Below, piece after piece: positions 29,648 through 41,486 of a stretch of 58,358 bases of DNA. The position numbers were made by a program, and so were the translations under genes. The notes under the pieces were generated by a model that saw nothing but the letters and a program-made list of their open reading frames with translations, was not told the DNA's origin and searched no databases. Source of the stretch: a bacterium (GTDB lineage Bacteria; SZUA-79; Acidulodesulfobacterales; Acidulodesulfobacteraceae); NCBI GenBank assembly GCA_021845685.1, contig JAJZVN010000011.1, positions 1 through 58,358 of the forward strand. Direction: 5' to 3'. Position 1 is the first letter of the stretch, and each line of letters begins with the position of its first letter.

Positions 29648-30829
29648 TTAATCAATATTATACAAAAACATTGCATCGCCGTAACTAAAAAATTTATAGT
29701 CATTATTTATTGCTTCTTCATATAATATTTTCATTTTATCTAAGCCGATTAATGCGCTGATCATTATAAAAAGCGAAGATTTTGGCTGATGAAAATTAGT
29801 TATTAAATTTTTAGTTATTCTAAATTTATAGCCCGGATATATATATAATGAAGTAATTGCATCATTTTCGGAATGAACGGTACCGTCAATGTCGGTTGAA
29901 GATTCTAAGCATCTTACGGATGAGGTTCCAGTTGCTATTATTTTATTGCCGTTTTTAATCGCGTTATTAATTGTATTTGCAGTTTCTTTAGATATTTTAT
30001 ATCTTTCTTCGTGCATATTATGATTTGTAATATTTCTCTCTCTTACTGGCTCAAATGTTCCTAATCCGATATTTAATGAAATATCGGTAAAAATACCGCC
30101 CTTATCTTTTATTTTATTAATGAGCTTTTCCGTAAAATGAAGTCCTGCAGTAGGAGCTGCGACAGAAAAACCGGAGTCTTTATTTGCATATATTGTTTGA
30201 TAATAAACTTCATCGTTTTTATCAGTTTGTCTTTTTATATAAGGCGGCAGCGGAACGGCGGAGCAGTTGTCAAATATAAAATTATAATCGTTTTCGTTTT
30301 GGATTATTATTTCCCATTCGCCTTTTCCGAAGCAGTTTAAAGCCGTAATGAAAATTTCATTATCATTATTATCGGCATTATCATTATTATTATTACTGTT
30401 TTCTTCTAAGCCCGTATATTTTAATGTATTTGGGTTATTTGAGCTGTTAGCGGTATTTTTTTTATTGTTTATCTTATTGTTTATAGGCGAAATAATAATT
30501 AGTTCATTTTCTTTAATTTTTTTATGAGTTTTTATTAAGCATTTTAATTTAAGAGGAAAAGTAATTTTATTTGGAAAATCTAAGACGAAAATTTCAACTT
30601 TGCCGCCCGTTTTTCTCTTGCCGAATATACGGGCTTTTTTAACATAAGAGCTGTTAACTGCTATGACATCGCCGGGGTTAATATAATCAATAATGTCATA
30701 AAATTTTCTATGTTCTATTTTAAATTTTTTTATATCGACTGCAAGAAGTTTTGATTCGTCTCTATTTTTGAGCGGATATTTTGCGACTAATTTTTCATCA
30801 AAAAAATAATTAAAATCTTCTAAATCCAT
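29648..30829 (-). CDS. queA: S-adenosylmethionine:tRNA ribosyltransferase-isomerase
   Basis: Adds the SAM-derived epoxycyclopentane ring to preQ1-tRNA, giving epoxyqueuosine. Motifs: FDEKLVAKYPLKNRDESKLL at the N-terminus, NPGDVIAVNSSYVKKARI, the substrate loop SVAAPTAGLHFT (~233), SLNIGLGTFEPVR, MHEERYKIS, ATGTSSVRCLES and LITNFHQPKSSLFIMISAL. At 393 residues it is ~45 longer than usual because of an Asn-rich insertion (~116-157). The right end of an IS200/IS605 element stops 4 nt before the ATG, so the native 5' region has been replaced. GGGAG within the IS end, 12 nt before the ATG, could act as a Shine-Dalgarno. Confidence 0.96.
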   Translation of the reverse strand: MDLEDFNYFFDEKLVAKYPLKNRDESKLLAVDIKKFKIEHRKFYDIIDYINPGDVIAVNSSYVKKARIFGKRKTGGKVEIFVLDFPNKITFPLKLKCLIKTHKKIKENELIIISPINNKINNKKNTANSSNNPNTLKYTGLEENSNNNNDNADNNDNEIFITALNCFGKGEWEIIIQNENDYNFIFDNCSAVPLPPYIKRQTDKNDEVYYQTIYANKDSGFSVAAPTAGLHFTEKLINKIKDKGGIFTDISLNIGLGTFEPVRERNITNHNMHEERYKISKETANTINNAIKNGNKIIATGTSSVRCLESSTDIDGTVHSENDAITSLYIYPGYKFRITKNLITNFHQPKSSLFIMISALIGLDKMKILYEEAINNDYKFFSYGDAMFLYNID

Positions 30830-30833
30830 ATAA

Positions 30834-31010
30834 GTGAACTACTCCCGCCTTAAGAGGCGTGAACTTCCTGTTTCAATGTATGACGGTGATTGTCCGATAT
30901 TTTGGATACCCGCCGGAGCATACTCCACAGACGTTAATTCCGGCGATTCCCGCCGTATTTTTATTCATTCAAGGAAAAGGTTATCACTGGCGTTTATATC
31001 CCTATCGTGC
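30834..31010 (-). ncRNA. Probable omega-RNA (reRNA) of the TnpB element
   Basis: In IS200/IS605 elements the guide RNA of TnpB covers the 3' end of tnpB and the right end of the element; the guide is the flanking host DNA. Here that region runs from inside tnpB through hairpins such as CGGCGGGAATCGCCGG and TGGAGTATGCTCCGG to the right-end hairpin. The first guide bases would be TTATATGGATTTAGAAG, that is the start of queA. The 5' limit is a guess; expression is not shown by sequence alone. Confidence 0.55.
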
Positions 31011-32065
31011 GTTGTGCCGCATACGGGGCATATCCATTCACGGTCGGACAACTTTAAGTCTTGTTTGATATATCCGCAACCCGGCGTAGAGCAGGTCTTA
31101 CTTGACGGATAGAACCTGTTGACTTTTATTATATCCCGCCCGTACCAGTCGGTTTTATATTTAAGCTGTCCTGTGAATATACCCCACGAAACGTCGGATA
31201 TACTTTTAGACAAATGCCTGTTTTTAACCATTCCTTTGATATTTAAGTCTTCAAGAATGATAACTTGGCTATCGTTTACCGTTCTTGAAGACAACTTGTG
31301 AAGAAAATCTTTACGCTGATTGGCAACTCTTTCATGTAGGATTGACAACTTACTACGGAACCTTGATTTATTCTTACTGCCTTTTGTCATCTTGGCAAAC
31401 TGCCGGTTAAGCGTTTTAAGCCTATTCTGTGCCTTAATTAAGTATTTGGGATTAGCGATTTTAATGCTTTGTTTATCGGATATATTTGTGCCAGTAGTTA
31501 TAACGGCAAAATCCTTAATGCCTAAGTCTATGCCTGATACATTGTTGTTTTTCGGCAGTAAAGCAAAGTCCTTTTCGACAAGCATATTAATATAATACTT
31601 ACTGGACGGATTCCTGGTTATAGTAATAGACTTAACGGTTTCCGATACCTTTCTGTGAAGTTTAATTTTAAGCGGCGTTTTGAGTTTCGGTATATACAAA
31701 AAATTATTGTTTATCGCAAAGTGTTGCGGTATTGTGATAGAGTTTGTGTTTATCTTTTTCTTGAAATTAGGGAACTTAGCTCTATGCTGAAAGAAGTTAC
31801 GAAAAGCCGTATCGAGATTTTTTAGCGTTGCCTGCAAGGATTGAGAGTTAGCGTCTTTCAGGAAAGAAAAGCCCTTTTTGAGCAGAGGCAATATAATAGC
31901 ATTGGTATAGTAATTGGTCTTTATGCCGTAGTTCTTATGCAGGTTAATCGACCTTTCAAGGAAGAAATTATAGACAAAGCGGTTATATCCAATCTGCTCG
32001 TCAAGAAAAGATATTTGCTCTTTGTTGGGATAGAGCCTGAATTTATATGTATATTGCTTAGTCAT
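30965..32065 (-). CDS. tnpB: RNA-guided endonuclease TnpB (IS200/IS605 OrfB)
   Basis: A 366-residue protein, ancestor-type of Cas12. N-terminal TYKFRLYPNKEQISFL, the central SLQATLKNLDTAFRNFF, and RuvC motifs: VSGIDLGIKDFAVI (first catalytic Asp, ~179), VIILEDLNIKGMVK (Glu, ~270) and THDRDINAS (last Asp, ~354). The zinc ribbon CSTPGC...CPVC lies between the last two. All three catalytic acids and four zinc cysteines are present, so it should be active. The C-terminus stops soon after the last motif. Its start overlaps the end of tnpA by 8 nt. Confidence 0.95.
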   Translation of the reverse strand: MTKQYTYKFRLYPNKEQISFLDEQIGYNRFVYNFFLERSINLHKNYGIKTNYYTNAIILPLLKKGFSFLKDANSQSLQATLKNLDTAFRNFFQHRAKFPNFKKKINTNSITIPQHFAINNNFLYIPKLKTPLKIKLHRKVSETVKSITITRNPSSKYYINMLVEKDFALLPKNNNVSGIDLGIKDFAVITTGTNISDKQSIKIANPKYLIKAQNRLKTLNRQFAKMTKGSKNKSRFRSKLSILHERVANQRKDFLHKLSSRTVNDSQVIILEDLNIKGMVKNRHLSKSISDVSWGIFTGQLKYKTDWYGRDIIKVNRFYPSSKTCSTPGCGYIKQDLKLSDREWICPVCGTTHDRDINASDNLFLE

Positions 32066-32471
32066 TATCGCTATTACCTTGAGATTCTACATATTTCTTT
32101 AATATATCTAATGTAACGCCGCCGGTAGTCATTAAAAAATAAGAACGACTCCAGAAGTATTCTTTCCACAATGCTTTCTTTATTTCAGGAAACTCTTTTT
32201 TAATCAACCTACTTGAAGCTGATTTGTAAGAGTTAATGAATTTAACTAATGCTGTTGACGGATTAGAGTTAAACAATATATGTATATGGTCTTTATTATG
32301 GTTAAATTCAATAATCTTTATTTTATATATATATCCTATATATCCAAAAATCTCCTTTAATCTATTGGCAATATTATCATTTATTACTTGTCTGCGATAT
32401 TTTACGACAAATATTAAGTGATACTGCAACAAAAATACTGAATGGAAATTATTATCATATCTTGTAGTCAT
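32058..32471 (-). CDS. tnpA: IS200/IS605 transposase TnpA (Y1 HUH)
   Basis: A 137-residue single-strand transposase. It has the HUH motif in HNKDHIHILFN (~63), the strand YHLIFVVKYRRQV typical of IS200-like proteins, and the catalytic Tyr in LDILKKYVESQ near the C-terminus. Length is normal for the family. A perfect -10 box ends 6 nt before the ATG, so the message probably starts at or next to the start codon (leaderless). Confidence 0.95.
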   Translation of the reverse strand: MTTRYDNNFHSVFLLQYHLIFVVKYRRQVINDNIANRLKEIFGYIGYIYKIKIIEFNHNKDHIHILFNSNPSTALVKFINSYKSASSRLIKKEFPEIKKALWKEYFWSRSYFLMTTGGVTLDILKKYVESQGNSDND

Positions 32472-32477
32472 GTCTTA

Positions 32478-32505
32478 ATTATATCATATTGCAACCTAAT
32501 GTCAA
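32478..32505 (-). promoter_or_regulatory. Consensus sigma-70 promoter of tnpA
   Basis: On the minus strand TTGACA (32505-32500) and TATAAT (32483-32478) match the consensus perfectly with a 16-bp spacer. Only 6 nt (TAAGAC) separate the -10 box from the tnpA ATG, placing the expected transcription start at the ATG itself. Confidence 0.85.
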
Positions 32506-32555
32506 GTGCTTTTGAAAGCAATTCATCTCCCGCTTAAGAAGCCAGAGTTTTCTTG

Positions 32556-32792
32556 CCTATTTTCTGATAAAATTAAAATTAATCGGCAGCGGATATTTAC
32601 CATTTTTGTACGTTATCTTTAAATAAACATCTTTAAATAAACATCTTTAAATAAACTATTTAAATTTATTAAACTTTCAACATAAAAAACTTAAATTGAA
32701 AGTAAAGCTAAATGATTATCGTCAAAAATATTATAGCATAATTATATACAATTATGTAAAAATATAATATAATAATTTTTTATTAAAATTTT
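32556..32792. other. AT-rich gap upstream of tRNA-Leu
   Basis: No gene or repeat family is recognised, apart from a short repeat of AAATAAACATCTTT (~32619-32652). The promoter of the tRNA gene should lie here; TATAAT-like boxes near 32763 are candidates but the composition is too AT-rich to choose. Confidence 0.4.
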
Positions 32793-32877
32793 GCGAAAGT
32801 GGCGGAATTGGTATACGCACTGGACTTAGAATCCAGCGGAGTAATCCATGGGGGTTCAACTCCCCCCTTTCGCACCA
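32793..32877 (+). tRNA. tRNA-Leu(UAG), integration target
   Basis: A complete 85-nt tRNA with CCA encoded. Acceptor GCGAAAG pairs with CTTTCGC, the D-arm is present, the anticodon stem-loop CTGGACTTAGAATCCAG has anticodon TAG (reads CUA), there is a long variable arm of class II type, and the T-arm GGGGGTTCAACTCCCCC. The integrase gene lies 123 nt downstream, and a partial copy of this tRNA occurs at 41423-41483. Confidence 0.96.
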
Positions 32878-32879
32878 TA
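32821..32879. other. Attachment site, tRNA side (attL)
   Basis: From TGGACTTAGAATCCAGCGG (anticodon arm) to the tRNA end plus ATA, this segment recurs at 41424-41486. The 19-bp anticodon block and a 29-bp block from the T-arm to the end are identical. Only the variable arm between them differs. The crossover was probably in the anticodon arm, so the 3' part of this tRNA is supplied by the element. Confidence 0.8.
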
Positions 32880-32999
32880 CAGTAAATAAGCCTTTCCAGC
32901 AACATTCCACTTGACAAGCATATCCTTAAAAATGGTAAAATAAGGTCAAATTTGGTAAAATATTGTCCCAAAATTGTCCCATATTAAAAAGGAGAAAAA

Positions 33000-34034
33000 A
33001 TGTCAGAGAATATCAGGCTGCGGGGTAAATATTACTATTACGATATGATGATTGACGGGATAAGGTATAAAGGGACGACCAAGACCTCAGATAAAAGCCT
33101 TGCCGAGAAGATAGCCAGCACGATAAAGAGCGATATACTCAGGCAAAAGCATGACTTGCCGACGAGCGTTAACTATGCCGACGATTATAATTTTCAGGAT
33201 GCATGGGAACAATATTTAAAATCGCAATTATCCGGCGCAAAAAATCAAGAAAGGAAAATATTTGCCGCTAAAAACTTCCTGCCCTTATTCGGTAATAAAT
33301 CTATTAAAAGCGTTAGCAAGGCAGAGATAGAAAATTATCAGCTTAAAAGAAAACTTGAAATTATGGCAATGCCTAAAAATATAAATAAAAGAGAACAGGA
33401 CATAGCATTCAGGAGTATAAATATAGAAACAGGCACTCTCCGGCATTTCTTTAATTTTTGTATAGATAAGAATTATATCGAGAAAAACCCCTGCACAGGA
33501 ATAAAGAAATTAAACGAGTTATCAAGAATCAAAATTTTATCGGATAACGATATAAATAAGCTCATCGCCGGCGCCACGAATAAACTTACCAGCGACTTAA
33601 TTACTTTTTTAATTTACACCGGTTGCAGGAAAGGCGAAGCATTTAATTTAAAATGGGATGACGTGGATTTGCAAAATAACGTGATAGCTGTAAAGGGGAC
33701 AAAGACAAAATACGATAGGCATATCCCTATTCATTCTCAATTAAAAGTCCTTTTGACAGGCATCGAAAGAAAGTCTGAATATTTATTTACGGGCATCAAC
33801 GGACAAGTAAAGGACTTTAAGGATTCTTTTAAAACCGCCTGCAGAAATGCCGGACTGAAAGATATGCGCATTCACGATTTAAGGCACGTATTTGCAAGTA
33901 AAATGGTTATGGGCGGAACGAGCCTTTATATTACCGGCGAGTTGTTGGGGCATCGGACTACCCAGATGACAAAGCGATATAGCCATTTGGTGCCGGAGAC
34001 GCTAAAGAAAGCCGTTGACGATGTGTTTAAGTGA
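33000..34034 (+). CDS. int: Tyrosine-type site-specific integrase
   Basis: A 344-residue integrase of the integrative element. N-terminal small arm-binding region (RLRGKYYYYDMMIDGIRYKGTTKT), SAM-like core-binding domain (~67-165), and the catalytic domain with all residues: Arg in TGCRKGEA (~209), Lys in GTKTKYDRHIP, His-x-x-Arg in RIHDLRHVF (~296), His in LLGHRTTQ and the nucleophile Tyr in TKRYSHL (~326). The ribosome site AAGGAG lies 6-7 nt before the ATG. It sits directly next to the tRNA-Leu target. Its C-terminal coding DNA is duplicated in diverged form at 36759-36872. Confidence 0.96.
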   Translation: MSENIRLRGKYYYYDMMIDGIRYKGTTKTSDKSLAEKIASTIKSDILRQKHDLPTSVNYADDYNFQDAWEQYLKSQLSGAKNQERKIFAAKNFLPLFGNKSIKSVSKAEIENYQLKRKLEIMAMPKNINKREQDIAFRSINIETGTLRHFFNFCIDKNYIEKNPCTGIKKLNELSRIKILSDNDINKLIAGATNKLTSDLITFLIYTGCRKGEAFNLKWDDVDLQNNVIAVKGTKTKYDRHIPIHSQLKVLLTGIERKSEYLFTGINGQVKDFKDSFKTACRNAGLKDMRIHDLRHVFASKMVMGGTSLYITGELLGHRTTQMTKRYSHLVPETLKKAVDDVFK

Positions 34035-34054
34035 GAAACTATTTTAACTGTTAA

Positions 34055-34911
34055 TTACAAATTATTTTTTTCTTCTCCAGTATAATTGCTTGTCTTTAAA
34101 TATTCTAAAAATTCTTTTCCTAATGGAGTTATTGAAACATATGGATATGGTGCGTCAGGAGGTATTAATTCAATCAATCCATTATTTTTCAAGAAATAAA
34201 TATATTTGTCATAGGGATAATTCCGCATTGTTTCCGGATAATAGTTTTTGAAGATATCATCCCATTTTATTGGTAATCGTGTTAATAACCACAATAACTG
34301 AATTTGACTTTTATAAATTATAGTATAGGTTTTTTCAAAAAAAATCTTTTTAGATAATTCATTATTTTTTCCCATTAATTCAATATTTTCTTTAAATAAT
34401 TTTTCATCTTGAATTGATGATGAAGATATTGCATTAGGTTTATTTGAGTCTTCTATAAGACTTTTAAGTTCATTTGTTTTTTTATTTGAGTCTTCTATAA
34501 GACTTTTAAGTTCATTTGTTTTTTATTAGATTGGAGTTTTTCCATTTCGATGTCGCCTGTTTTCCAATTGGCAGATTTTATCCTATTTATTAAATTAGTT
34601 ATTTCCGGATGAAATTTTTTAATTAAAATTAAGCTAATTATAAATATAATTATCGGCCATGAGATGAATATTTTATAAAAACTAAGTATTAATTTTGGGT
34701 TTTTATTAACAAAAAATAAATCATAAAAGAATAAGACATAGGGTATTAAAATTATTAAAATAAAAAGCGCATAGGAAATATTAAAAAAATTTAAAAACGG
34801 TTTTTCTTTATTAGGGAGATTTATTGTTGGATTCTGTTCTTCAATGTCGGTCGTTACTATTTCTTTTTTTTCTAATTTTTCATTTTTAGGTGTATCAATA
34901 TTTTCTTTCAT
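34055..34911 (-). pseudogene. Frameshifted membrane / coiled-coil / winged-helix-like gene
   Basis: Two pieces read as one gene of ~280 codons. The first (34911 to ~34520) has a charged N-terminus, two transmembrane helices (YALFILIILIPYVLFFYDLFF and WPIIIFIISLILI) and ends in EMEKLQSNKK. The second continues in another frame with TNELKSLIEDSNKK twice, then a C-terminal domain shaped like a winged helix (DKYIYFLKNNGLIELIPPDAP...ITPLGKEFLEYL). The frames join at an A-tract of six (34519-34524); one more A restores a single open frame. The equivalent tract in the next repeat unit has seven. It may be a real pseudogene, a sequencing error, or a slippage-expressed gene. Function unknown; it follows the restriction-modification pair. 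Confidence 0.72.
34441..34523. repeat. 42-bp in-frame tandem repeat, two copies
   Basis: Two near-identical 42-bp units encode TNELKSLIEDSNKK twice on the minus strand. They differ in the length of the terminal T-tract (7 in 34477-34483, 6 in 34519-34524), which is where the reading frame breaks. Confidence 0.9.
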
Positions 34912-35021
34912 TTTGCTTTTAATGCCCTTTTATACAATTTTATTCCCGAAACTTGATTGTTTTATACTCTTTACCTTTCTTTATTGGGATATATAATAAA
35001 TTTTATATTTTCCTCAAAAAA

Positions 35022-35816
35022 TTAAATAATTACCGTTGTTTTTTTATATAACAAAGGCAATTTATCTTGTCTCATCCTGAATTTAGTTCCGTGATTATGT
35101 CCCGTACGAGCATCAAAATCCACCAGAATATTCGCATTTTCAATTTCGTTTAAAAATCCTTCAAAATTGAATTTTTCTAACATCATAACCTTTGAATACC
35201 AATAAAACTCTTTTTTATTATCAGTTTTAACTTCCGCTTGTACATAAAAGCAATTTAGTAATTTTGTTCCTGCTTTGTGTTCTAAGTCGTCAAATCCCCA
35301 ATATGGTTGCGGATTCAATTCTTTTAATCCAATTATATTCTCCACCGATTTTAACCACTCGGAATGTCTTACGTCAACGGCTTTGGAGTCAAAGGAAATT
35401 AGAACCTTTCTTTCTTTTCTGTCAATAACAACCATAAAACCGCGATCGCTTCGGGATAACCCATGAATAGTCTGCCGAAAGCTCATTTCGCCGGCAGGAT
35501 ATTTTTTGCCCGATTCTCCATGCGCCCAACCGTATTTTGGCAATAAAATTTGGGGCACAAAACGAATCGCGCGCGGCGACGGTTCAATATGGAATAAAGT
35601 GGTCAAAGATGATGAGTTGATGCGTTGCGATTTTAATTCCCATTCCGCCGCATTAGGGATAGGTAAATTATTTTCTTTAATACCGATCAAGTCTTCTAAC
35701 GTATTACCGATTCCGCCGTGATTACCTGTTCTGGCATTTGCAATCCATCCAGATGCAGAAATTTCTTTTAACTTTTCGATTAATTTTGGCTTTGTATAAA
35801 TTATAGGTTCAGTCAT
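35022..35816 (-). CDS. Type II restriction endonuclease, MvaI/BcnI family
   Basis: A 264-residue nuclease. It contains the family pattern GNHGGIGNTLEDLIGIKENNLPIPNAAEWELKSQR (~32-66 in pieces), where the Glu/Asp and ELK residues form the catalytic site, then SLTTLFHIEPSPRA and KYGWAHGESGKKYPAGEMSFRQTI, typical of MvaI/BcnI-like enzymes, and a C-terminal DFDARTGHNHGTKFRMRQ. MvaI and BcnI act as monomers on CCNGG-type sites (CCWGG, CCSGG), so a related target is likely but not certain. The start overlaps the end of the methyltransferase gene by 8 nt, so the two are translationally coupled, methyltransferase first. Confidence 0.9.
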   Translation of the reverse strand: MTEPIIYTKPKLIEKLKEISASGWIANARTGNHGGIGNTLEDLIGIKENNLPIPNAAEWELKSQRINSSSLTTLFHIEPSPRAIRFVPQILLPKYGWAHGESGKKYPAGEMSFRQTIHGLSRSDRGFMVVIDRKERKVLISFDSKAVDVRHSEWLKSVENIIGLKELNPQPYWGFDDLEHKAGTKLLNCFYVQAEVKTDNKKEFYWYSKVMMLEKFNFEGFLNEIENANILVDFDARTGHNHGTKFRMRQDKLPLLYKKTTVII

Positions 35817-36567
35817 AATTATATAATAATTTTCCTTGTTGTATATGCAATTTAATTCGTTCTTCGGCCATATTGCAGTATTCCGGAGAATTATCGATGC
35901 CGATATAGTTTCGATTAAAATTTATTGCGGAAATCGCGGTCGTTCCAGAGCCCATAAATGGGTCTAAAATAGTTTTTGCATTAGTCGATGAAACTATCCT
36001 ATCAATTAGATTAATAGGAAAAGCGGCGGGGTGATAGTTTTTCATTTCTTGAGTAAATTCCCAGACATCGCCATAAGCATTTGCTTTTTCAGATAGTTTA
36101 AATTTAGGCTTAGCTATCAAATAAATAACTTCATAAGTCGGCAAGAAATAACCGGGATTAAAATTAAAGCCTCCTTTTCTTTTCCAGATAATAATTTGCC
36201 GGACTGGAAAGCCGTTAACTATATCTTGCCTATCTTGTAAAAGTCCGGCTTGCACCCGCCATTTATGGTTATAAAAAATTGCCCCGTCATCAGATAATAT
36301 TCTCATCATTTCCGCTAAACAATTTCTTTGCCATTTTACGTATTTATCATGTGGCATGCAGTCGTCATGGTGCGAATAGCCTTTTTGCAGGGCGGCATTT
36401 GCCCATTTTCCGGTTTTGCTATTCTTCATTCCGTTGCCGGTGGAGTTTTTTAAATTATAAGGTGGGGATGTAACAATTAAATCAATAGATTCATCGGGGA
36501 TTTGTTTCATTATATCTATTGTATCTCCGCATATTATCTTATTTATGAAGTCCGTCAATAATTCCAT
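35809..36567 (-). CDS. DNA (cytosine-N4 / adenine-N6) methyltransferase, beta class
   Basis: Protective methyltransferase of the type II system. Motif IV TSPPYNLKNS (~33) comes first and the SAM-binding motifs X/I, DPFMGSGTTAISAINFNRNYIGID (~200), last: the beta-class order. TSPPY favours N4-cytosine methylation, which fits the partner of MvaI/BcnI-like nucleases. Length (252) is at the small end but all motifs are present. Upstream is a gap and then the integrase remnant. Confidence 0.92.
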   Translation of the reverse strand: MELLTDFINKIICGDTIDIMKQIPDESIDLIVTSPPYNLKNSTGNGMKNSKTGKWANAALQKGYSHHDDCMPHDKYVKWQRNCLAEMMRILSDDGAIFYNHKWRVQAGLLQDRQDIVNGFPVRQIIIWKRKGGFNFNPGYFLPTYEVIYLIAKPKFKLSEKANAYGDVWEFTQEMKNYHPAAFPINLIDRIVSSTNAKTILDPFMGSGTTAISAINFNRNYIGIDNSPEYCNMAEERIKLHIQQGKLLYNYD

Positions 36568-36758
36568 TTTTTTATAAAATCAAAAAATATTTAATTAAAC
36601 AATGCTATCACACCTTAAGAATACTAAATTTTAGTCCGAACATTGGGGAGTACATTGAAGAATCCTGATATATTTCTAATATTATAACAATTATCGGCAA
36701 TTATGCAAGGATTTATATATTATTTCTAAAAGAATGTTATCTGTTTTATAGGAATACA

Positions 36759-36872
36759 TTAGGGAATAGGACGACCCAGATGACGAAGCGGTATAGTCAT
36801 TTAGTGCCGGAAACGCTGAAAAAGGCGGTTGACGATGTGTGGGGGAAGAAAGATAAAATAATAATTAAATAA
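36759..36872 (+). pseudogene. C-terminal remnant of a second tyrosine integrase
   Basis: A 37-codon open fragment reads LGNRTTQMTKRYSHLVPE and then TLKKAVDDVWGKKD. This is almost the same as the end of the integrase at 34.0 kb (LGHRTTQMTKRYSHLVPE), with many silent base changes. The catalytic Tyr is present but everything upstream is missing, and the active-site His is replaced by Asn. It suggests an older or second element at this locus, with the R-M module between the two integrase ends. Confidence 0.88.
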
Positions 36873-36947
36873 TATGAAAAAATCAATTATACATTATTAT
36901 AAGTTCTCGGGGTTATCTGCAATAATGTTTATATTTTTCTTTTCATC

Positions 36948-37164
36948 TCAAGCTTTTTCTTTCGGCATTTTTAACATTGCCTTTCTTGTTTCTTGTATTC
37001 TTTTAAGGCTTCTCCGGCTAAAACATCAAAAGGATTTACGGCTTTTTTTAATTGCATCTGTTTTTTTCCGCATCGTAATTTAGATAAAATACATCTCCGG
37101 GATTTATATTTATATCCTTTCTTATGCTTTTAGGTAAAGTAATCTGCGGAAGAAAAACGAAGGA
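36948..37164 (-). pseudogene. AbrB/MazE-type antitoxin remnant, frameshifted
   Basis: On the minus strand one frame reads PQITLPKSIRKDININPGDV then FYLNYDAEK, the SpoVT-AbrB DNA-binding fold. A second frame continues KKAVNPFDVLAGEALKEYKK to a TGA at 36948, the usual C-terminal tail of this antitoxin family. The frames meet at an A7 tract (37061-37067) and one extra A joins them. No start codon is visible: stops lie directly upstream in frame. No intact toxin follows; the integrase remnant starts where it would be. Confidence 0.75.
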
Positions 37165-37711
37165 TTAAAGGGTAGGTCATAAAAACAAAAATCAGAAAAT
37201 ACAGGAATAAAATTAATAATATAAATCCTGCTGTTTTTAAGATGTTTGTTTTCATAATCAGGCTATTTTGTATAATTTTATTATTTATTATTTATTATTT
37301 GGTTTTATTTTAATTTGCCGGTTAAGAATATAATTTAAAATTACATATTTACATATAAAGCGGTTTAGATATTGTTTAAATATTTTTGGATAATAGATAA
37401 TAGATAATATAGATGTTTAATTTAAAATTTATCATTAAAATATATAAAAATATATAGTGCTTTTTTGTTTAAAATATTACCAAACGCAACAAGGAGTAAA
37501 TAATAAAATAAATCAGATACCTTAAAAGCCTTAATAAAAGTTAACTCGATTAATTTTTATTTTAAAATAACCGTAAAAATAAAAACCCCTACCCCGCAGA
37601 TTCAAGCGGAAGTAGGGGATAAAATAAATCGGATAGCTATTTTGATTTTCTATTTTCGGCATATTTTTATTCACATTGTTATTATTATAACGGATTATGG
37701 TGAATTTTAGT
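37165..37711. other. Gap with one terminator, no gene
   Basis: No coding region is recognised. AATAAATCAGATACCTT (37500) belongs to the same short-motif family seen near 4918 and 5418. A terminator of the downstream minus-strand gene lies at 37585-37618. Confidence 0.5.
37585..37618 (-). terminator. Rho-independent terminator of the PD-(D/E)XK-like gene
   Basis: On the minus strand CCCCTAC ... GTAGGGG forms a hairpin and is followed by TTTTTATTTTTA. Placed about 95 nt after the stop codon of the gene at 37712. Confidence 0.75.
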
Positions 37712-38221
37712 TTATATTTTTTCTATATATTCTTCACATTCTTTCAATTCCCTTACTTCATTTTTTTTGTTAACGGGAAATTTAACAAAGAAAGTATATT
37801 GATAATTTAAGTTACCTTTATACGCCTTTAATTTTTCTCTATCATTGCCATTGTCACTTGTTGTTGTCTTTTTTGCTTCTATGACTATAAAATTGTCGTC
37901 GTTAGTTCCTCTGCGATGAATAATAATATCAGGATAGACAGTTACGCCATTGGTATCATCGGAGCAAATTTCTTTCTTTAATAAATTTATTAATGAATTT
38001 AAACGTTTTGTTTCTAAACCATTTCTATTATACTCGCAATCCACATTGTGATTAGGAAACTCGTCTTCCAAATAAATCGCAAATCGATGCGTAATGCTTC
38101 TTTCATTTGCATCAACCTCTAACAGATGCGAATCGTTTCTTAATAATTTCAGGTAAGCGTTCTTAATTTTCTCTAAGACTTCTTTATCGTCTATATTTAT
38201 AAAATCATTAGATTTATTCAT
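37712..38221 (-). CDS. PD-(D/E)XK nuclease-like protein of unknown function
   Basis: A 169-residue cargo gene of the integrative element. The centre carries TVYPDIIIHRRGTNDDNFIVIEAKKTT (residues ~101-127 in pieces): PD, a spacer, then E-x-K in a beta strand, which is the layout of the PD-(D/E)XK nuclease superfamily. The N-terminal half is helical and polar (SHLLEVDANERSITHRFAIYLEDEFPNH). I chose ATG 38221 because GGGGCGG lies 5-11 nt upstream; a TTG at 38251 is in frame but lies closer to the preceding terminator. It could be a restriction-like or defence nuclease, but no partner is adjacent. Confidence 0.72.
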   Translation of the reverse strand: MNKSNDFINIDDKEVLEKIKNAYLKLLRNDSHLLEVDANERSITHRFAIYLEDEFPNHNVDCEYNRNGLETKRLNSLINLLKKEICSDDTNGVTVYPDIIIHRRGTNDDNFIVIEAKKTTTSDNGNDREKLKAYKGNLNYQYTFFVKFPVNKKNEVRELKECEEYIEKI

Positions 38222-38251
38222 AATGTCCGCCCCTATTTTAAATAGCTGCAA

Positions 38252-38286
38252 AAATAAAAAACCCCCGATATTTCACATATCGGGGG
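38252..38286 (-). terminator. Rho-independent terminator of the chimeric gene
   Basis: On the minus strand CCCCCGATAT-GTGA-AATATCGGGGG (38286-38262) is followed by TTTTTTATTTTT. A textbook intrinsic terminator 33 nt after the stop of the gene at 38319. Confidence 0.9.
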
Positions 38287-38318
38287 TAAGATTAACTAAT
38301 TCTAACAATATGTTGCTA

Positions 38319-39323
38319 TTAGAATGCTGCTCCTGAAATTAATGTAGCAGTTCTTGTAAAATCGTCAACAGCGTAAAGTTGATAATTACCTCCTGTAAAG
38401 TTAGATCCCGCAAAAGCTTCAAAACCGCCTCCGCAAGAGCTATTTACATTTGACGTACCAACAGGAGCTCCGCCAGCAACTGATGTTGCCTTATACGTAA
38501 GCGGGAATCCTGCGCCTTGCTGAGCAGTAGGACCAGATAAACTAGCCGTGCTGTTGATTGCAACGCCGTAATAGAAATATAGTCTGCCGACAGGAAAAAA
38601 TCCTATATCGCCAAAACCGCCCATTGCTGGTGTCGTTGGTCCACCAGTTAATTTAGCTACCCCAAGCGTATAGGTATTATAACCGCCTTCAGCAGTTAAC
38701 ACACCACCAGTACATGAATATGGACCGAGATCTATATTATATACGCCTGCGCCCTTTGTATTCGTAGCACTGTAGAAAGAATGTATTGGCGAAACTGCGC
38801 CCGCTATAGGCGCTGCTGCAGGAGCAGAACTTTCTCCTGCGCTAATATAAGCCGAATTTGTTGAAGTGAACGCCGTTTCGTCCGTATGCTTTAAAGATTT
38901 ATGAATTTCCCTATTAAAGTTTTCATTCAATTTAAAATCATATGTCCGGTTTAAGTTGTGATTTTGAGAATATTTATTCAAAGCGGTTTCAAACTTATTT
39001 AATGCGGCTTTATCGAGTTCGAATGTTTTATGCGCTATTCCGTCGTTTATTCGGCTATCGAGATAAGCTTTTACGGCTGTGCCGGTAGTTTTAGTTAAAT
39101 CCTTTAGTTTTAAGTTTTCTTTTGCCCAAGTCCCAAATCCGGCTACGCTTATCCTGTATGCGTCGTTCGTCCGGTAACTGTAGATTCCCGTTTTTTCGGC
39201 TATCCCGTGAGAACCGGTTGCGCCTGCAAGTCGGGCTTCGTTTTTAGCTGAGTATTTAGAATTTCCGATCTCTTTTATTTCTTTAAAAATTTCAGTAACT
39301 TGCCATTTTATTGTGCCTTTCAT
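38319..39323 (-). CDS. Chimeric protein: integrase-like N-terminal domain + Gly/Ser/Thr-rich, pilin-like C-terminal half
   Basis: A 334-residue protein I cannot name. Residues 1-~120 (KGTIKWQVTEIFKEIKEIG ... GIYSYRTNDAYR ... FGTWAKENLKLKDLTKTTGTAVKAYLDSRI) resemble the core-binding N-terminal domain of some tyrosine recombinases, but no catalytic domain follows. From ~150 the sequence changes to Ala/Gly/Ser/Thr-rich with two cysteines (YSCTGG, NSSCGGG) and segments such as FFPVGRLYFYYGVAI and FEAFAGSNFTGGNYQLYAVDD. These recall the globular part of type IV pilins; no pilin leader or long hydrophobic helix is present. Codon use in the second half is less AT-rich. It has its own terminator. Both domain calls are by eye and uncertain. 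Confidence 0.6.
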   Translation of the reverse strand: MKGTIKWQVTEIFKEIKEIGNSKYSAKNEARLAGATGSHGIAEKTGIYSYRTNDAYRISVAGFGTWAKENLKLKDLTKTTGTAVKAYLDSRINDGIAHKTFELDKAALNKFETALNKYSQNHNLNRTYDFKLNENFNREIHKSLKHTDETAFTSTNSAYISAGESSAPAAAPIAGAVSPIHSFYSATNTKGAGVYNIDLGPYSCTGGVLTAEGGYNTYTLGVAKLTGGPTTPAMGGFGDIGFFPVGRLYFYYGVAINSTASLSGPTAQQGAGFPLTYKATSVAGGAPVGTSNVNSSCGGGFEAFAGSNFTGGNYQLYAVDDFTRTATLISGAAF

Positions 39324-41097
39324 AATAAATTTACCTATTTTAAGTTAAAATAATTCTCTATATTTGTATTTAAACAAGACTGTAGATGGCAAGTTTAACT
39401 CGTGCGATTGAGTGCCTTAAAATCAGGCTAAAGTTAAGAACGGAACTTTTTTTGAAAGGTAGTTTTCCTTTTGCCTATTTTTTCTTGACTGTCTAAAAAA
39501 GTCTCAATCTCTTTTATTTTTTAGATAATAAGAAAGCGCCGGCGGGCACAAGATTTTTTGCAATTCTCGTCAATAAGCGCTTTGCGCTGGAATTGCTGGA
39601 TAAAAATCTCAAAAAGCCTGATACGTAAATAAATGGGATTGTTATTACAGGAATGACTGCATAACGGTGTATGCAGTTTTTATTATATGTTTTAAATCTC
39701 TATTTTCCCGAATGGAACACGGGCGTTTACGGCGCAAATCTTTCTTTCTCCCTGTATTTAAGGGGGTTGTGGTAATATTAAGAATATTTTTATTTGCGCA
39801 AAAGGGCGGTATATAAAAAATAAAATAAGAGACCGCCAAAAGCAAAAGTATCCAAAAAAAGATAAAAGTATTCCTATATCAAAGAAAATTGATATAAAAA
39901 TAGATTTAAAATTTAATGGGATTTTTTAGGTTTTTATTATTTAAAGAATTATTTATTATTGTCTATTGTTACCAATAAAATCAAGTTCCAGATTCTGGAA
40001 CTTGATACTGATATTTCAAAATCCGACCAATAATAAATAAGATAAATAATAAAACATAGGATTTAAATGAAGTTAATAAATAATTTTTAGGGTTTTCTAC
40101 TTAATTATTTATTACTTGAATGATTTTAGGACAAAACTATACAAATAAGATAGGAAGCGAAAAGAATACTAAAATTTAAAATAGCTATGCTGATTTTAAA
40201 TAAAAATATCCTTATATAATTAAATATACTTTTAAAAATATATTTAATTATGCGGTCTGAACTAAATCTGTCTCCATTAATAATTTGACCGTAAATTAAT
40301 AATGTAACGTCGCTCAGATTTAATTTTAACAAGATTGAATTGAAAGGCTGGTTTGTCAATATTATATGCTCTTGTTGTATATATAATATTATCGCCAGTA
40401 GTATTTGTTTTTTGTTTCTTGCGAAACGATAGAAAACAAATATAAAAAATCTTTAATAATTATAGGATACCAGATAAAAAGATAATGTCAAGAGTTTTTT
40501 TAGGGATACTGAAAAAATATTTATTTACTAATATCCACATCATTTTTTTGGTCTGCATCCTTTTCTCTTATTTGCTATTCGCTCAGTTTGGTAAAACGAT
40601 AAGATTTTGTTCGTTATTAGAATTATTTAAGCAAGGTTTCACAAACATTTGTGAAACCTTGCTATCCTCTTTTTTATCTTTTTTATTACTACAAGGCTCT
40701 GTTTGTATTTAATTCGCTTCGCTATTAAATACAAACAGAGCAGGCGGTTGCCGATCGTCTAAAATTATTTTAATTTTTGTAATAGTGTCGGCGGCAGTGT
40801 CATTTTAGGGTGGTTTTTGCTTGCTCCGTTTTGCTGTTTTTTCTTACTCCATTATCACGCCTACGGCGTAATAACTCCGGCGAAAAAAGAGCGCAAAACT
40901 CCGGCGCAAAAACATTTTTAAAGGCAGTATATTGAGAAACTCGCTTTAATGACAAAGCTATCTCTCAAACTCTCAAAGAAATCGGGAATGGAGTAGAAAC
41001 ATTCCGGCGTCTAAAAGAAAAAACCCTTTATTATTTTAAATATCGGTTGTATAATTGATAAAAACATTAATTTAATTTTAATCGGGGGTATATAATT
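39324..41097. other. 1.77-kb hairpin-rich region of the element, no convincing gene
   Basis: I find no open frame with a ribosome site and sensible composition. Strong inverted repeats are: TCAAGTTCCAGA/TCTGGAACTTGA (39981-40005), GCAAGGTTTCACAA/TTGTGAAACCTTGC (40631-40662, followed by T-rich DNA), and a perfect 17-bp pair CTCTGTTTGTATTTAAT (40697) / ATTAAATACAAACAGAG (40724-40740). The last third is GC-richer, with GCGCAAAACTCCGGCG-type repeats (40860-40920). It could hold a replication/transfer origin or structured RNA; this is not shown. Confidence 0.5.
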
Positions 41098-41328
41098 ATG
41101 CATTATATAAATTTAGGCTTGCTTTTAGTTATAGTGGGTCTTGTCATCGGCGTTTATGTTCATACGGACAGAAAGATTGAAAAATTATCCGATAAAATTA
41201 CAGAAGTCGATAATAAATTATCTGCCAGAATGGACAGGCTATCGGACAGAATGGATAGGATATACGATATATTAGTCCATATGGGATTCAGGGATAAAGA
41301 ATACAGAGATAAAGCTGCAAACGAATAA
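41098..41328 (+). CDS. Small membrane protein with coiled-coil tail
   Basis: A 76-residue protein with one N-terminal transmembrane helix (LGLLLVIVGLVIGVYVH, ~6-22) followed by a heptad-like coiled coil: KIEKLSDKITEVDNKLSARM, then DRLSDRMDRIYDIL. The topology resembles small anchor or scaffold proteins of phages and integrative elements. GGGGG about 8 nt before the ATG at 41098 can act as ribosome site. It is the last gene before the right attachment site. Function unknown. Confidence 0.75.
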   Translation: MHYINLGLLLVIVGLVIGVYVHTDRKIEKLSDKITEVDNKLSARMDRLSDRMDRIYDILVHMGFRDKEYRDKAANE

Positions 41329-41423
41329 GTCCGAATTTAAGCCTTTTGTCTCAAATTTGTCCCATAGCATTTTTTACAATGCTAATTACTTAATAATATT
41401 AATAAGTTATAATATGCGATTGT

Positions 41424-41486
41424 TGGACTTAGAATCCAGCGGGACAACCCATGGGGGGGGGTTCAACTCCCCCCTTTCGCACCATA
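41424..41486. other. Right attachment site: displaced 3' fragment of tRNA-Leu (attR)
   Basis: TGGACTTAGAATCCAGCGG and, after a diverged variable arm and a run of nine G, GGGGTTCAACTCCCCCC plus TTTCGCACCATA repeat the 3' part of tRNA-Leu at 32.8 kb. The acceptor 5' half and D-arm are absent, so it is not a working tRNA. It marks the right border of the element; the distance between the two copies is 8.6 kb. yebC begins 76 nt further on. Confidence 0.9.

Follow-up and report, generated by a model that had tools for sequence, protein, structure and literature searches.

Here we describe a complete IS200/IS605 element, codirectional with queA, that appears to have inserted after a TTTAT motif in the AT-rich leader of this gene and whose right end now stands 4 nt before the queA start codon. 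The window, by which we mean the whole stretch of 58,358 nucleotides that was analysed, is a contig of a draft genome (G000) from the genus Candidatus Acididesulfobacter, for which the comparison set comprises seven genomes. Our preferred explanation, to which we give a probability of roughly 85% as a whole, joins this insertion with a homing guide directed against the empty site and with transcription of queA as part of a tnpA-tnpB-queA unit. Comparison of the sequences establishes the boundaries of the element, its gene content, the catalytic residues, a covarying hairpin, an uninterrupted site in a relative and an intact queA. The features are collected in Table 1.

Table 1. Features at the queA junction, with positions counted from the first letter of the window.
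Feature	Position	Strand	Details
queA	29648..30829	-	393 aa, intact; PF02547 E 2.2e-103; 94% identical to G001
Predicted guide TTATATGGATTTAGAAG	30817..30833	-	first 17 nt past the element; overlaps the queA ATG at 30829-30827
Right end / predicted omega-RNA scaffold	30834..30962	-	terminal hairpin CGCCT-CTTA-AGGCG
IS200/IS605 element, complete	30834..32566	-	1733 nt; first bases CAGAAAATAGG, last bases GTAGTTCAC
tnpB	30965..32065	-	366 aa; PF01385, PF07282, PF12323
tnpA	32058..32471	-	Y1 transposase, 137 aa; PF01797 E 2.5e-43
TTGACA-16-TATAAT promoter-like site	32478..32505	-	TG before the -10; ahead of tnpA, toward queA
TTTAT, target site and presumed TAM	32567..32571	-	left of the element
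Candidate native queA -10, TATAAT (TGCTATAAT)	32730..32735	-	also in AP1

The ends of the element were set by comparison with other copies. On the right, copies from the same genome and from the genus agree up to TTCAC and differ beyond it, with similarity stopping at 30834, and GTTCAC stands at the same model end in 39 of the 47 right-end model hits from the seven genomes. On the left, TTTAT precedes all eight of the ends that align from base 1, and is also visible by eye before two more that align only from base 6 or 7; the left boundary of the queA-side element, directly after TTTAT, is 32566. Because the right ends are common up to TTCAC and the left ends start after TTTAT, the element spans 30834-32566. 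Read along the minus strand, its junction with queA is ...CGCCTCTTAAGGCGGGAGTAGTTCAC/TTAT/ATGGATTTAGAAG. The start of queA itself is confirmed by 25 other genomes, which align from the first residue and have an ATG there. The 4-nt distance reported by the first-pass annotation is thus upheld by both comparisons.

By several marks this is a normal IS200/IS605 element, an unusually clear example of a known system. TnpA is a Y1 HUH transposase that aligns to the TnpA of ISHp608 with the HIH motif and Y127 kept. The target motif on the left is fixed (TTTAT in 8 of 8 ends) and the target is not duplicated, as seen when the genomes G006 and G004 are compared (see below). The right end is palindromic, with a terminal hairpin that covaries: among 23 aligned copies, both sides have changed in 7 to 10 sequences at five of the seven pairs. 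Judged from these alignments, TTTAT is the target site of the element, and by analogy with ISDra2 it is presumed to be the TAM of its TnpB as well. Other measures of right-end structure are more mixed. RNAalifold recovers the terminal hairpin with the shorter of two alignments (A2) and not with the longer (A1), and the right-end RNA folds only mildly better than shuffled sequences (z -1.8). The match to Rfam family RAGATH-18 reaches 26.7 bits against a gathering threshold of 44.9, and the right end was not assigned to that family.

The predicted nuclease also bears the marks of its class. TnpB carries the TNB domain (PF07282), is related over its length to the TnpB of ISDra2 (8bf8, E 2.3e-66), and its residues D180, E272 and D356 align with the RuvC residues of that protein. 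These three positions, like the HIH motif and tyrosine of TnpA, are active-site residues; for D191 of ISDra2 the role is given in PMC8612924. The window protein is short, its frame being ended at 366 aa by an in-frame TGA, with the loss of the C-terminal tail found in relatives. In five of the eight other copies checked the tnpB frame continues through the right end as far as a TAG 8 bases short of its end; in a sixth (L109) the tail differs but stops at that same TAG, and the remaining two (L160 and L121) are out of frame there. The truncated protein may be less stable. It may nevertheless be active as a nuclease, since the cited part of PMC10097598 describes an ISDra2 TnpB mutant without residues 376-408 that still cut DNA.

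ISDra2 from Deinococcus radiodurans is the closest guide to what such an element could do. In the sections of PMC8612924 that we cite, it has adjoining Y1 TnpA and TnpB and a right-end reRNA that takes about 16 nt of RNA as a guide from the flank; its TAM is found on the left flank, double-stranded DNA is not cut by TnpB unless a TAM is adjacent, and the donor joint that excision creates is proposed as the target. The omega-RNA is made from tnpB mRNA, according to part of PMC10278001. The two systems differ in the TAM, which is TTGAT in ISDra2 and TTTAT here, and in the length of TnpB (408 versus 366 aa). The SisTnpB elements of Sulfolobus islandicus are likened to ours by motif, not by protein: TTTAT or TTTAA adjoins their left ends in the cited part of PMC10640517, although there TTTAT goes with tnpB-only elements and here tnpA is present.

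If the window element works in the same way, TnpB would load an omega-RNA that takes its 3′ guide from the first ~16 bases past the element, and these bases are the start of queA. The suggestion that a flank-derived guide would fall on the queA start, already made from the letters alone, holds, with the first 17 nt past the element overlapping the ATG. Every element of this type draws its guide from the flank, and the start codon is part of this one only through the choice of insertion site. A guide on a downstream start codon is not mentioned in the titles and abstract openings that we surveyed on TnpB and neighbouring genes, TldR and read-through.

Where could this guide act? Across the genome that hosts the element, the junction itself is the only place that matches all 17 nt with zero mismatches, and across the seven genomes of the genus the only other is the empty site described below. 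Allowing up to two mismatches gives nine places in the genome, the junction included, compared with 11 for a reversed-pattern control; this is not beyond chance, and other targets in the genome were rejected on that count. At the junction the match is preceded by TTCAC, not by TTTAT, for as long as the element is in place. Since the whole element lies between TTTAT and the guide match, no action of the guide on queA is expected in the window, and with no TAM beside it the occupied site would be spared. Self-targeting of the occupied queA was rejected on these grounds, and the earlier idea that the guide could act on the queA region is not supported.

The same observations bear on whether TnpB might instead be a regulator resembling the TldR repressors, with its guide repressing queA or another gene. 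TldR proteins are also TnpB-derived, with a guide at the 5′ region of a gene, in the part of that literature we drew on, and the position of the guide and the loss of the C-terminal tail would suit such a role. Here, however, the nuclease residues and the transposon are intact: the RuvC residues are kept, tnpA and both ends are still present, and the genome holds no other zero-mismatch target. TldR is defined by an inactivated nuclease, and we consider this explanation so improbable that it was set aside.

The better candidate for a target is the empty site. Looking for it in relatives had been proposed as a check by the first-pass annotation, and it was found in Candidatus Acididesulfobacter diazotrophicus AP1, where TTTAT is followed by exactly TTATATGGATTTAGAAG. 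We took genome G001 to be AP1 (record SGBB01000006), the sequence upstream of queA being identical. There, too, the locus is flanked by tRNA-Leu and queA, and the element is absent. In sequence, then, AP1 has the presumed TAM next to the flank-derived guide match, and this empty site, rather than the occupied one, is what TnpB would be expected to target as a homing nuclease. Under our preferred explanation, the guide would cut the empty TTTAT plus TTATATGGATTTAGAAG after excision, and the element would be copied back. A sister lineage whose sequence matches the predicted target exactly, TAM included, provides a natural test of the TnpB homing model.

That said, the window locus cannot be derived from the AP1 sequence by insertion alone. 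The AP1 leader contains two copies of TTTAT, the second directly 5′ of TTATATGGATTTAGAAG; the window keeps the first at the left end of the element and the sequence after the second at its right end, and the 56 nt of AP1 leader between them are missing. This stretch is probably ancestral, because part of it has a counterpart in another genome of the comparison (G003), and its loss would be explained if a deletion, either preceding or following the insertion, had run from one TTTAT copy to the other. The element had been described as fused to queA. This is a fair description insofar as the leader directly 5′ of the gene now consists of the element, but it leaves out the missing 56 nt.

This leader has a history of insertion. 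A mini-element whose ends are of the same kind occupies the queA leader of G006, at a distance of 92 nt from the ATG; the precise empty site for it is present in G004, with no target duplication. Given this insertion and the one in the window, the queA leader has been hit at least twice, at different places. The arrangement seen at queA in the window is kept in no other relative that we compared.

What matters for queA is probably transcription: the element brings a promoter, no recognisable terminator follows it, and 56 nt of leader have been lost. The promoter-like site ahead of tnpA matches the consensus at 12 of 12 positions and is the only perfect one between 29600 and 33000, in a region where promoter-like sites as a class are not in excess (12, against a mean of 17 in shuffles). 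A copy in G005 (L083) has TTTACA-16-TATAAT at the corresponding place; a relative in G010 has neither an intact tnpA ORF nor this promoter. As a separate observation, the -10 box in the window is placed such that the tnpA mRNA could be leaderless. A search of the minus strand from the tnpB stop to queA found no terminator-like site. The candidate native -10 of queA, which was not picked up by the promoter scan, now lies some 1.9 kb away from the ATG on its upstream side. On our preferred explanation queA would be the last gene of a tnpA-tnpB-queA unit, transcribed from the promoter of the element, from the old upstream promoter or from both. If so, a mobile element can come to stand first in the unit from which a housekeeping gene is transcribed and still leave that gene intact.

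Sharing a transcript could have a cost. If TnpB binding and the maturation of the omega-RNA removed or masked the queA start, TnpB would set the level of QueA. The guide and the queA ATG do share nucleotides within a single transcript, predicted structure in the right end extends as far as the start region, the stretch between tnpB and queA is free of terminator-like sites, and TnpB can cut its own mRNA 5′ of the omega-RNA in vitro (PMC10278001, in part). However, the same part of that paper describes processing of 5′ but not 3′ sequence, and the queA portion need not be removed. A promoter located inside the right end would remove the conflict, and no other relative has kept the arrangement at queA. 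On balance we regard such a conflict in cis as unlikely.

Does the element also supply a ribosome-binding site? The GGGAG at its end was singled out earlier as the only Shine-Dalgarno-like motif before queA. It is indeed the only one, and the AP1 leader lacks it, which would fit an element that improves queA translation and is retained for that reason. The motif, however, is 12 nt from the ATG and predicted to be more than 90% paired. A Shine-Dalgarno core of 4 nt is absent from the queA starts of 23 of the 25 other genomes, and from positions -20 to -4 of 24 of the 33 window genes checked. The queA ATG of many relatives is closely preceded by a TATAAT, a placement that a very short leader would predict. 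The spacing, the predicted pairing and the native leaders led us to reject a donated Shine-Dalgarno, which we rate as very unlikely, and the need for the motif is not supported. In the explanation we prefer, queA translation would start without a Shine-Dalgarno, like most genes here.

Is the position of this right end typical? The count covers every one of the 47 model hits; 41 of them are followed on the right by a called gene and six are not. With genes called by a simple ORF rule (90 aa), a null drawn from six stretches and kinship among copies ignored, 33 of the 41 right ends face a codirectional gene (p 9e-5 against a TTTAT null of 0.51; p 0.008 against a uniform intergenic null of 0.61). 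Sixteen of the 41 lie within 100 nt of a codirectional start, compared with 13.4% of intergenic TTTAT sites (p 4e-5). Six lie within 50 nt of a start (p 0.11), and two lie within 10 nt of a codirectional one against an expected 1.9% (p 0.18), so the closeness at queA is not beyond chance. In an earlier subset of 38 copies, made up of 36 of the 47 model hits and two other matches, 28 of 34 were codirectional and 16 of 34 were within 100 nt. Outside the test, the other genera of the family contributed 18 copies, of which 11 are codirectional (one with a repeated flank) and seven are not.

Where no tnpB adjoins the right end, the neighbour on its left is usually codirectional as well (20 of 24), a pattern more suggestive of strand-biased insertion than of selection for fusion to gene starts. 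Insertion has been linked to the lagging strand, according to the cited part of PMC6006769, and such a link fits the bias better than selection for gene starts does. Given the rule-based gene calls and the small null, we treat the gene-start bias of right ends as a lead. A stronger reading, in which right ends are recurrent 5′ gene leaders in the genus and TnpB and QueA compete for one transcript at queA, is in our opinion quite doubtful. If the bias holds in closed genomes, it would be relevant to how these elements select or retain their sites.

Some other copies deserve mention in their own right. A mini-element of about 50 nt, TTTAT/CAAAAACCAAGCAAG...GGGAGTAGTTCAC, occurs in G002 (L087, about 1600-1655) and in G003 (L089), and has probably been kept since these two species split, because it lies 21 nt before the same gene start in both. 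Two right ends from different genera, L121 in G000 and L161 in G008, are followed by identical sequence, with an ATG at 0 nt that opens a 111-aa ORF; they may belong to a shared larger mobile unit.

The window also contains an integrated island at tRNA-Leu (32793-41486), with a tyrosine integrase after the tRNA. Two exact copies of the 30-nt tRNA end, GGGGGTTCAACTCCCCCCTTTCGCACCATA, lie at 32850-32879 and 41457-41486. An ORF was called at 41451, ahead of ruvC; its true start is probably later, since the called one falls inside the second copy of the tRNA end. Within the island, the 3′ part of the integrase gene recurs (33945-34026 and 36759-36840; 82 nt, 84% identical) and is probably the remnant of a second integrase, and a unit of 42 nt forms a perfect tandem pair at 34439-34522.
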